Below, one piece after another: positions 7,172 to 11,278 of a stretch of DNA of 47,558 bases (positions are counted from its first letter, which is position 1; the number at the start of each line of letters is the position of its first letter). The DNA is taken from the NCBI GenBank assembly GCA_039638595.1, contig JBDIWM010000011.1, forward strand, positions 1 through 47,558, given 5' to 3'. The stretch comes from Atribacterota bacterium. Its GTDB lineage: Bacteria; Atribacterota; Atribacteria; Atribacterales; Caldatribacteriaceae. The notes beneath the pieces are model-generated. The model was not told where the DNA came from and made no database searches. It saw only the letters and a program-made list of their open reading frames with translations. The position numbers were made by a program, and so were the translations under genes.

Positions 7172-10100
7172 TTAAGACACAGAAAAGCTGTGGCGTGCCG
7201 GTTCAAAAGAAACAATCTGAGAAACACCAGGTTCATTCATGGTCACTCCCACAATCCGGTGCGCCTTTTCCATCACCTCTTCCTGATGTGTGACCACGAT
7301 AACCTGTCGAGAACGCGCAAACTCGGAAAGCACCGTGGCAAAAAGGGTGCTGTTTGTATGGTCCAAATTGGCATCCACTTCATCTAAGAAACAAAAAGGG
7401 AAGCGACCAGCTTCAAAAATGGCAAAAAGCAAGCACAAGGCGGTAATCGCCTTTTCTCCGCTTGACAGAAGCAAAAGCGGTTGCCTTTTCTTACCAGGGA
7501 TTTTAACCTCGATATCGATACCATGAGGCTCTTCCAGAAAATACACTTCCCCACCCTGAAATATCTTCTTGAAGTACCGTTCGAAGGCCGCTTTCACCTC
7601 CTGGAGAAATCCTCTAAACTGCCTCGTTCCTTCGCGTTCCAGACGAGAACAACCGTCTTCGACCTGATGGAAAATCTGCAGAATTTCCTGGTCTTGCTTT
7701 TGCAACGCATGGTAGTGTTGTTGCAAATCTCGCAGCTCCTCAATCGCCCCTCGGCGTATTTTTTGTGACTTCAACCAGGCGGTCCTCTCCTGGACGAAAT
7801 CCTCGACCTCTTTGAGTTCCCAAAAACTGAAGTGATCCCCTAAAGCCACGTCCTCCAGTTCTCCAAGCTCCTGCTCCAAAATTCCCCTTTCTAAAGACAA
7901 CTTTTCCTCCTGCAACCGCAATCGTTCTATCTTCTGGATAAGCCCTTCTCTCTGCCTTTCCAGTTCCCGGATTCGGTCCTCCTTTTTTTGAATGACCATA
8001 TTCTGAGCGTACTCAGAGCGTTTTCCTTCTCCAAGACGCACCGCCTTCTCGAACAGAAAAGCCTGATGTTCCTGAAACTTAGGGAGTAAAGCCTGCAAAC
8101 GCTTTTCCAAAAGAAGAACAGTCTTTTTTTCTTCCTCAAAAAAGCCCCTAACCTCAGCAAATTTATCTCTCAAAACTCGAACTTCCCAGCGCAGTTTTTC
8201 CCGTTCGCTTTCAATTTTTCTTTTCATGACAAGCATCTCTTGAACCTTTTTCAGGCTCAATTCCAATCGTTTTAGCGATTGCTCAACTTCTGCTTTTTTC
8301 CCCCTTAAGCCCTTTAAAACCTTCAAGAGTTCTCCTTTCTCTTCCCAGATTCGTTCTTCTTCCTTTTTTTTACCCTCAATCTCCAGAATAACCTCCTGAT
8401 ACTCCTTCTGGATTTGCTTTATCCTTTTCCTAGCGTGTTCAAGTTCAAATTGAGCTTCCCAGTGTTTTTTTTCCATCATCTGGAGTTCTCTTTCCAGGTT
8501 TTGAAGACGCTGCGTTGCCGATTGAACGGCCATCTCAAATTGCTTTTTCCTCTCTTGCAAACTCTTCAAAAAACGAGACCCCCGTAAAGACGAAACCGCT
8601 TTAAAAGGAAAAATCAGAATCCCCCCCTGAAGCAAAAGGCAACTACCGTCAGAAGAAATCAAATGTGATGAGAGCGAAACATTCTGGCGAAGCAAAGCCT
8701 GAATTTCCCCCATCGAACATGAAGACCAGGAAGAAGACAGAGGAACCACCATCCGACCCAGATTATCTTCCGCCATTTTTTTGAGCTCCACGGTTTCCCT
8801 TTCGTACCACCCTTTACCCTGCAAAAACCAGGAAAGCGCATAAACTGCACGCTGAGACCAGCCAGCATGCGTAAATTGCTGCACCAATTTCTCCACTTCG
8901 GGAGCACAGTGACCTTCCTGAATCTGGGCTAATTTTCCAGAAATCTTTTGAAGAATGACATTCTTTTTACGGATACGCTCTTGAAGCGTCTGGATTTCTT
9001 CAACAACGGTCTTTTTCTTCCCCTCCAAAGCGCAAAGAAGCGCTTCCTTTTTCGCACATTCTGCGGAGAGCTCCTGTATTTCCTCTTCCATACGCTTTCT
9101 CTTTTTTTCATCCTGCCGACATTCCTCGGCTATCCGAGCCAATGCGGTTTCTCTTTGTACAAGTCCTCTTTCCAGGCCAATCCGTTCCTCCTCAATCTGA
9201 GCACGTTCCTGAATCTTTCCCTTTTGGAAGTGAAGCAATACTGCCTGCGTTCTTTCGCCACGGAAAGAACAAGCCCACCGCTTGCCTTTCTCGTGCCAAT
9301 CCTGCACTTGACTTTCAAGCCGCTCAACCTCGTTTTCCAGAGCCCGCAACTTCATTCTATAGAGAAAACTCAACTTCACACTTTCTCTTCCACGCGTCAG
9401 GAGATGGTACAGCTCTTCCTCGTCTTTCCTTTTAACCCTTTCCCGTTCTTCTTTTTCCGTTTGCCATTTCCGCAGGGAAGAACGAAGGGATTCCAACTCC
9501 TTTCTTTCCAGCATAAGTTCCTCTTGAAGAACTGTAATCTGAGCACACAGCTCAGCGAGTTCCCCCTCCAGTTTTACCCTCTCCTGAGAAACGTTCCTCA
9601 TCTTCTCTTCCTTCAGCGACCTCATCTGGCAGAGATAAAATTTTCTGGCGGAACGCACTTCCTGCTCCACTCGCAAGTACTCTTCCTCTTCCCGCGCCAG
9701 GATCTTCAGACGTTCCATCTGGGACTCGACTTCCCGCAAACGCTCTGCAAATCGTTTTTCCCGTTCCTTGGCTTTCCCCAAACGGGAAAGGAGAATACCC
9801 AATTTCATCCGTATCTCAGCGATACCACTCATCTGTTCAAACCATCGCAGACGCTCAGCAGGACTAAGGTCGAATACGGCTCCCAGAGAGCCACCGTTAA
9901 CCACACCCATGCTCATTCGTTCCAGAGAAAACCCAGTTGCCCGGATTTTCGACTTTAAATCCAGAAGACGCACTTTTTCCCCATTCCACAAATATTCCGA
10001 CTCTCCAGAAACAAAAACCCTGCGCTCGATCGACCACCACACATCATCCTCTTTTTTGGCCCATTTTGTCTCTACAGAGGCCATACCAAGGGGCTTACAA

Positions 10101-10312
10101 GAGGAGGAACCATGAAAAATGACTTGGGCAATCCGACTTCCCCTTCCTTCTTGCACTCTTTCTCCCAAAACAAAGCGAAGCGCATCGAGGAGATTGCTTT
10201 TCCCAGCACCATTGGGACCCACAATGACGTTAAGGCCGGAAGAAAGCTCAACCACCGTAGGGTGAGCAAAAGACTTAAAACCCTGAAGAACTACGGTTTT
10301 CAAATAGCTCAT
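7172..10312 (-). CDS. smc: Chromosome segregation protein SMC, divergent, short hinge
   Basis: A 1046-residue SMC ATPase that compacts and separates chromosomes as a dimer with ScpA/ScpB. The N-terminal head has Walker A GPNGAGKSN (32-40). Long coiled-coil arms follow (about 170-465 and 570-890). The C-terminal head shows LLSSGEKAITAL (signature motif with Ser for the first Gly) and FCFLDEVDANLDHTN (Walker B and D-loop). Usual SMC proteins have about 1170-1190 residues. Here the hinge, about residues 465-570, keeps a GRMVVPL-like first half but the second half is strongly reduced. The start overlaps the rnc end by 38 bases, suggesting coupled translation. Confidence 0.93.
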   Translation of the reverse strand: MSYLKTVVLQGFKSFAHPTVVELSSGLNVIVGPNGAGKSNLLDALRFVLGERVQEGRGSRIAQVIFHGSSSCKPLGMASVETKWAKKEDDVWWSIERRVFVSGESEYLWNGEKVRLLDLKSKIRATGFSLERMSMGVVNGGSLGAVFDLSPAERLRWFEQMSGIAEIRMKLGILLSRLGKAKEREKRFAERLREVESQMERLKILAREEEEYLRVEQEVRSARKFYLCQMRSLKEEKMRNVSQERVKLEGELAELCAQITVLQEELMLERKELESLRSSLRKWQTEKEERERVKRKDEEELYHLLTRGRESVKLSFLYRMKLRALENEVERLESQVQDWHEKGKRWACSFRGERTQAVLLHFQKGKIQERAQIEEERIGLERGLVQRETALARIAEECRQDEKKRKRMEEEIQELSAECAKKEALLCALEGKKKTVVEEIQTLQERIRKKNVILQKISGKLAQIQEGHCAPEVEKLVQQFTHAGWSQRAVYALSWFLQGKGWYERETVELKKMAEDNLGRMVVPLSSSWSSCSMGEIQALLRQNVSLSSHLISSDGSCLLLQGGILIFPFKAVSSLRGSRFLKSLQERKKQFEMAVQSATQRLQNLERELQMMEKKHWEAQFELEHARKRIKQIQKEYQEVILEIEGKKKEEERIWEEKGELLKVLKGLRGKKAEVEQSLKRLELSLKKVQEMLVMKRKIESEREKLRWEVRVLRDKFAEVRGFFEEEKKTVLLLEKRLQALLPKFQEHQAFLFEKAVRLGEGKRSEYAQNMVIQKKEDRIRELERQREGLIQKIERLRLQEEKLSLERGILEQELGELEDVALGDHFSFWELKEVEDFVQERTAWLKSQKIRRGAIEELRDLQQHYHALQKQDQEILQIFHQVEDGCSRLEREGTRQFRGFLQEVKAAFERYFKKIFQGGEVYFLEEPHGIDIEVKIPGKKRQPLLLLSSGEKAITALCLLFAIFEAGRFPFCFLDEVDANLDHTNSTLFATVLSEFARSRQVIVVTHQEEVMEKAHRIVGVTMNEPGVSQIVSFEPARHSFSVS

Positions 10313-11009
10313 GGGTCAGATATTCTTCGCTGATAATTTTTTCCCAAGCTCGACGAGCTGCTTCCTGTTCCGCTTTCTTCTTGTTTTTCCCCTCCCCCAC
10401 AGCCAAAACCCGACTTCTTATCTTTACTGCCACCCGATATAGACCACAATCCCAGTTTTCTGCAACCACCTCGTACTCAGGAAGCGAAGCACAGTATTGC
10501 AAACACCACCGTTGTAAAAGCCCTTTATAATTGATGGAGAGGAGCGCGTCATCGATACCACCCTCACCCAAAAATATTCTCTCGAGGACTTTTTTGGTGA
10601 CATCGTAGGAAGAAGAGTCCACAAAGATGGCACCGATAAGGGCTTCAAACGCACTCGAAAGAATAGAATCCTTTGCCCGACCTCCGTTCCGTTCTTCCCC
10701 TTTACCCAATTCGATAAACTGATCCAAACGAATTTTCCGTGCTAAATGAGCCAGGCACTCCTCGCTGGCCCACTTCGACTTCATCAGAGATAACCAGCTG
10801 CGAGGTTTATCATAATTATGAAAAAGGTAGTCGGCGATAAAAAGCCCGACTACCCTATCTCCCAACCACTCCAGTTTGTCGTTACAGGATCCTTCCTTGC
10901 CTTCCAGAGCAGATTTATGACGTAACGCCAAAACTAATAATTCGCTATTTTTAAAACCATACCCAACGATATTCTCGAGCTGGCGAAAATCCCTTTCGGG
11001 TAAAACCAT
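10275..11009 (-). CDS. rnc: Ribonuclease III, with altered catalytic residue
   Basis: A 244-residue RNase III that processes rRNA precursors and double-stranded RNA. The catalytic domain has the signature NDKLEWLGD (E47 and D51 present, matching E. coli E41 and D45). The second motif reads SILSSAFEALIGAIF: E122 matches E. coli E117, but the Asp equivalent to E. coli D114 is S119 (codon AGT). The position of E. coli E65 is R70. The C-terminal dsRNA-binding domain (about 156-225) is intact, with GEGKNKKKAEQEAARRAW. It lies between acpP and smc, the classic place. It may be active with changed metal binding, or mainly bind RNA. Confidence 0.92.
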   Translation of the reverse strand: MVLPERDFRQLENIVGYGFKNSELLVLALRHKSALEGKEGSCNDKLEWLGDRVVGLFIADYLFHNYDKPRSWLSLMKSKWASEECLAHLARKIRLDQFIELGKGEERNGGRAKDSILSSAFEALIGAIFVDSSSYDVTKKVLERIFLGEGGIDDALLSINYKGLLQRWCLQYCASLPEYEVVAENWDCGLYRVAVKIRSRVLAVGEGKNKKKAEQEAARRAWEKIISEEYLTHELFENRSSSGF

Positions 11010-11021
11010 CGAAACGCCAAG

Positions 11022-11255
11022 TCAACCAATCTTGGATTCGATGTACTCCACGGCTTCGCCGACAGTGGTAATCTTTTCAGCGTCTTCGTCGGGAATTTCA
11101 ATGTCAAACTCTTCTTCAAAAGCCATAATGAGTTCCACGATGTCCAGAGAATCGGCCCCCAGGTCATCAATAAATGAAGCATCTGGCGTGACTTCTTCTT
11201 CATCGATTCCCAACTGATCCACAATGATTTCCTTCACTTTAGAGAAAACGTCCAT
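11022..11255 (-). CDS. acpP: Acyl carrier protein
   Basis: A 77-residue ACP. S36 in GADSLD is the attachment site for 4'-phosphopantetheine, and the four-helix pattern ([19 protein letters not shown]) is normal. It carries growing acyl chains for the Fab enzymes and PlsX. I place the start at the ATG at 11255, which follows AGGGGGT by eight bases; an in-frame GTG at 11264 lies inside that ribosome site. It follows fabG, and rnc follows 12 bases downstream. The fabF gene that usually stands between acpP and rnc is missing. Confidence 0.97.
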
Positions 11256-11278
11256 CTCGCACACCCCCTAAGGATATT

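Follow-up and report, generated by a model that had tools for sequence, protein, structure and literature searches.

According to reviews, D114 (E. coli numbering) is one of the catalytic acids of RNase III that are highly conserved. The post-cleavage complex of the E. coli enzyme, at 1.8 Å resolution, has MgA coordinated by E41 and E117 and MgB by D45 and E117; of the four acids, D114 alone makes no direct contact to Mg2+ (PMC9291653). The equivalent aspartate is a direct metal ligand in Dicer/Aquifex-type models (PMC13334501) and contacts the metal directly in the RNase III of Entamoeba (PMC5357909). A preliminary description of the locus named D114 as a ligand of the catalytic Mg2+. This view is disputed: it agrees with the latter two reports and is contradicted by the E. 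coli structure.

The E. coli mutant D114A retains weak activity in excess Mg2+ and shows low RNA binding (PMC8708148 Table 1), Aquifex D107N appears in a list of mutants which bind without cleaving (PMC8138440), and changes of the equivalent residue D1810 of Dicer are cancer hotspots. The E. coli mutant F42W is active (PMC8708148 Table 1). For other active-site mutants, D45A and E117D of E. coli and the corresponding ones of Campylobacter, rescue by Mn2+ is on record, and the Entamoeba enzyme, which has all four acids, cleaves with Mn2+ and not with Mg2+ (PMC5357909). The triple exchange E38A/E65A/Q165A turns the E. coli enzyme into the siRNA-producing EcEEQ, a 'bacterial Dicer' (PMC9291653); products of about 22 bp from long dsRNA would mark an enzyme of this kind. 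Some eukaryotic RIIIDa domains naturally carry Asn for Asp at the D114 site (PMC5357909); for bacteria we found no report of a natural loss of D114 in the open-access literature.

The window, i.e. the whole stretch of 47,558 nucleotides analysed here, belongs to a genome of 2.1 Mb that is 97% complete. The phylum is Atribacterota, represented among the named public genomes by 'Candidatus Atribacteria', and the order is presumably Atribacterales. Its rnc gene (10275..11009, reverse strand) codes for an RNase III of 244 amino acids, and the open reading frame, strand and coordinates given previously proved to be correct. The nuclease domain (RIIID) comprises residues 21-146 (10572..10949, reverse strand) and matches Ribonucleas_3_3 (PF14622, 98.9 bits) and Ribonuclease_3 (PF00636, 74 bits); residues 161-224 (10338..10529, reverse strand) form a dsRNA-binding domain (dsrm, PF00035; dsRBD). 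This order of domains, RIIID at the N-terminus and dsRBD at the C-terminus, is that of bacterial RNase III, and the presence of the dsRBD separates the protein from Mini-RNase III, which is a RIIID without dsRBD. The score against the RNase III equivalog model TIGR02191 (174.2 bits) lies above the curated cut-off of 166.25. AlphaFold2 predicted helices followed by an alpha-beta-beta-beta-alpha arrangement with a mean pLDDT of 85.4; both domains are confident, and the nuclease domain is mostly above 90. In the Foldseek search bacterial RNase III structures ranked first (best matches 1o0w, 7r97, 1rc7 and 2nug), with the nuclease domain 1.0-1.9 Å from the Campylobacter, Mycobacterium and Aquifex domains. 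The nearest solved relative is the RNase III of Thermotoga maritima.

Each genome contains at most one RNase III-family (PF00636) gene and consequently no back-up; in the genome of the window this gene is rnc. A second RNase III or a Mini-III was considered as back-up and rejected, as the genome search found none. The neighbours of rnc are acpP (11022-11264) and, on the other side, smc (7172-10312), whose start lies within the end of rnc. The overlap of 38 bp suggests translational coupling in the cluster plsX-fabK-fabD-fabG-acpP-rnc-smc, the gene names of which were read off the translations only.

Alignment with the E. coli enzyme places E47 (10869..10871), D51 (10857..10859) and E122 (10644..10646; these and all following codons on the reverse strand) at the positions of E41, D45 and E117, so that all three Mg2+ ligands are present. 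The second catalytic motif reads KDSILSSAFEALIGA and has S119 (AGT, 10653..10655) at the position of D114; the fourth catalytic acid is missing. The position of E65 is occupied by R70 (CGC, 10800..10802) within a PR[SG]WL motif that stands in place of xEGxLS/T. The serine, the arginine and the intact state of E47, D51, E122 and the dsRBD had been described before and are borne out by the alignment, the codon and the domain matches. Three further exchanges had not been mentioned: D44 at the position of E38 (10878..10880), W48 at that of F42 (10866..10868), and L170 at that of Q165, which contacts the +3 G (10500..10502).

As the preliminary description had proposed, the protein was aligned with those of related genomes. 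A small residue is fixed at the D114 position throughout the order: all 20 relatives covering the site, which represent four families and separate assemblies, carry Ser (18) or Gly (2; L003 and L021). E38D, E65R, F42W and Q165L are fixed alongside this loss, and the three remaining acids are invariant and show no decay. Wherever the serine codon was read in the order it was AGY, which lies two base changes away from the Asp codons GAY. This codon distance, together with Ser or Gly in 20 of 20 relatives, means that S119 is neither a sequencing error nor a product of chance. As the reading frame is moreover intact and under purifying selection, there is next to no probability that the residue stems from an error in sequencing or assembly, or that the gene is a pseudogene.

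Elsewhere in Atribacterota Asp has been retained by the sister lineages f5 and f7, save for one f7 genome (G030; L242 / L026). This genome shows a separate exchange of Asp for Ser (AGT), with Asp kept in its relatives and with E65 and Q165 intact. In the f6 genome G026 (L241, C182:1-4557) the position is taken by His. The RNase III frame of this locus comprises 165 amino acids, has no dsRBD, is directly followed by a radical-SAM-like frame and could be a form that naturally consists of the RIIID alone or else a defective gene.

We further sampled RNase IIIs from other phyla, from the class of an Aminicenantes genome and from its phylum, taken as Acidobacteriota. Across the survey of 240 non-redundant sequences, which includes the order of the window, E41, D45 and E117 were invariant throughout. 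The D114 position was occupied by Asp in 133, Gly in 47, Ser in 40, Asn in 17 and Ala in 3 of them. Since the sampling was aimed at the clade in which D114 loss had first been met again, the 107 of 240 without Asp do not stand for the frequency in bacteria at large; in a multi-phylum sample outside Atribacterota, Asp was present at 72 of 73 loci. Given so many members without it, the fourth acid is no defining feature of the family. A FastTree tree from which the D114 column had been left out shows at least 14 changes between Asp and other residues, mostly in Acidobacteriota, and five independent pairs with and without Asp rest on well-supported branches. Judged from these alignments, D114 alone among the four acids of RNase III is replaceable in evolution.

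In full-length proteins the replacement was always Gly, Ser, Asn or Ala. Such small (Gly, Ser, Ala) or isosteric (Asn) residues would fit a role that a water molecule can fill. E65R and F42W were each confined, within this set of 240, to the order of the window, while Q165 varies more widely. E65R as compensation for the loss of D114 was considered and rejected, because Acidobacteriota lose D114 yet keep E65. A scan of the alignment columns for residues co-changing with D114 gave nothing convincing, with only the five well-supported pairs to draw on. One divergent group of Acidobacteriota RNase IIIs (L311-L319) keeps Asp at the D114 position and has Gln for E38 and mostly His for E100.

We considered whether the enzyme of the order could have lost cleavage altogether and act as a dsRNA-binding factor, with other RNases processing the rRNA. 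The fourth catalytic acid and E65 are both gone throughout the order, the mutants Aquifex D107N and E. coli D114A are defective in vitro, and RNase III-like proteins that are no enzymes exist, such as maize RNC1; the fold of mL44 was among the structural matches of the protein. In several order members, moreover, the rRNA genes seem to be partly unlinked. On the other hand, the three direct Mg2+ ligands never vary, a conservation that would be superfluous in a protein that only binds, and many Acidobacteriota show the same kind of change in their RNase III. Pairwise comparisons within the order gave dN/dS values of 0.03-0.1 for the nuclease domain, i.e. strong purifying selection. The dsRBD values are similarly low, so that the nuclease domain is constrained no less than the binding domain.

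The processing stems of the rRNA, the cognate substrates of RNase III, are kept as well. The 16S gene of the window's own genome is flanked by a perfect 18-bp stem formed by AATATTCCGCCTACTTCC upstream and GGAAGTAGGCGGAATATT downstream, the two flanks sitting on different contigs (L181, L171). The stem scored 44, compared with a mean of 24.7 (sd 3.7, maximum 38) for 100 shuffled sequences. These stems were found by local helix scoring, as RNAduplex on whole flanks gave long and uninformative pairings. The same stem, in a longer form, is present in G003, G007 and G017; in the relatives stems of 21-35 positions flank 16S, and stems of 19-22 bp flank 23S in G014, G017 and G007. Two Acidobacteriota without D114 gave a mixed result, with a clear 16S stem in G093 (Gly) and none in G246 (Asn), and were left out as general evidence. 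The retained stems are supportive of cleavage and no proof of it, since they could have other uses such as assembly or antitermination.

The 16S flanking stem is nearly invariant in the order (TATTCCGCCTACTTCC / GGAAGTAGGCGGAATA; L181 and L171 on the genome's own C20 and C63, and the relatives), and a boxA-like CTTGAAAAGT lies immediately upstream. Several members of the order seem to carry their 16S and 23S genes apart: in G017 (L145, L152, L161, L163) one 16S-23S pair is linked and a further 16S and 23S are separate, and in G007 (L146, L160) and G003 (L144) no 23S match was found downstream of 16S on the contig. The 16S contig L147 (G005 C67) has a 5' flank that fits the genus, whereas the 16S gene itself and the flank 3' of it do not (84% identity to G003); the contig looks chimeric or contaminated.

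Low dN/dS in the nuclease domain, the lack of a back-up gene and the kept stems all argue that the protein is still an enzyme. The suggestion in the preliminary description that cleavage was lost in favour of RNA binding found no support in these data or in the 107 surveyed sequences lacking D114, and we regard a pure binding function as quite unlikely. Its suggestion of a changed metal site is supported, as one of the four acids is lacking in the entire order, with the remaining three invariant; slow cleavage, which it had also raised, is possible for the window's enzyme.

We therefore favour, with good though not full confidence, the reading that rnc encodes the only RNase III of the cell and that this enzyme still cleaves dsRNA, using a three-carboxylate metal site. 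The sequence, its fixation in the order, the purifying selection, the retained stems and the single copy are observed, whereas anything said on activity, rate, metal preference and specificity is inferred. The metal site would consist of the invariant carboxylates E47, D51 and E122, and a water molecule held by the small side chain of Ser or Gly probably stands in for the lost fourth carboxylate. That D114 is not a direct Mg ligand in E. coli and that D114A keeps weak activity in excess Mg2+ are in favour of an active enzyme. The weak E. coli D114A, the reportedly non-cleaving Aquifex D107N, the Dicer D1810 hotspots and the co-change scan over five well-supported pairs, which yielded no compensating residue, speak against it. 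With fewer acidic side chains and an additional Arg in the RNA-binding valley, tighter binding of dsRNA would be expected, and the loss of Q165 would remove the preference for +3 G, partly as in EcEEQ. The enzyme of the order thus probably binds dsRNA tighter and with less sequence specificity. It probably acts mainly on the stems of pre-16S and pre-23S rRNA.

The loss of a carboxylate could also have weakened the use of Mg2+, such that the enzyme would work chiefly with Mn2+ or some other transition metal. This idea draws on the rescue of E. coli D45A and E117D and the Campylobacter counterparts by Mn2+ and on the Entamoeba enzyme, which cleaved with Mn2+ and not with Mg2+. Since the latter has all four acids, metal preference does not simply track the fourth acid, and a switch of cofactor seems very unlikely to us. 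It is likewise unlikely that in this order, and possibly in many Acidobacteriota, the sole RNase III is non-cleaving or works with another metal only, so that the stems would be bound and matured otherwise.

The protein is a genuine variant of a known enzyme, shared by the whole order, and it is probably active. D114 is probably less essential in nature than the laboratory mutants imply. As D114 has been replaced repeatedly in nature while the other three acids stay, the role of the fourth acid can be tested with natural enzymes; the question raised is what this acid does and how enzymes manage without it. The natural changes at the 'bacterial Dicer' positions may make the order's enzymes useful as reagents for dsRNA processing.

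Compared with the bacterial RNase IIIs of E. coli, A. aeolicus and T. maritima (TIGR02191), the domain order, the fold and three of the four acids are alike, whereas the window protein differs by Ser/Gly for D114, Arg for E65, Asp for E38, Trp for F42, Leu for Q165 and a one-residue deletion ahead of the E65 position. The D114-less RNase IIIs of Aminicenantia and other Acidobacteriota share with it the exchange of D114 (for Gly, Ser, Asn or Ala) and the retention of E41, D45 and E117; they nearly all keep E38 and E65, in contrast to the order of the window, to which E65R and F42W are restricted in this sample. In EcEEQ (PMC9291653) the same three positions are altered as in the order. Of its three neutralised residues, the acidic valley residue E65 and Q165 are lost here too through E65R and Q165L, whereas E38 only becomes the shorter acid Asp; at E65 the charge is turned round by Arg, and D114 is lost in addition. 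The eukaryotic RIIIDa domains with Asn for Asp (PMC5357909) have naturally lost the same catalytic aspartate; unlike the window protein they possess an extra catalytic Asn/Lys and a partner domain in one chain. The inactive RNase III-like proteins mL44 and RNC1, finally, share the fold and altered catalytic residues with the window protein, which differs from them in its three invariant Mg ligands and in being encoded by a stand-alone rnc with a dsRBD.
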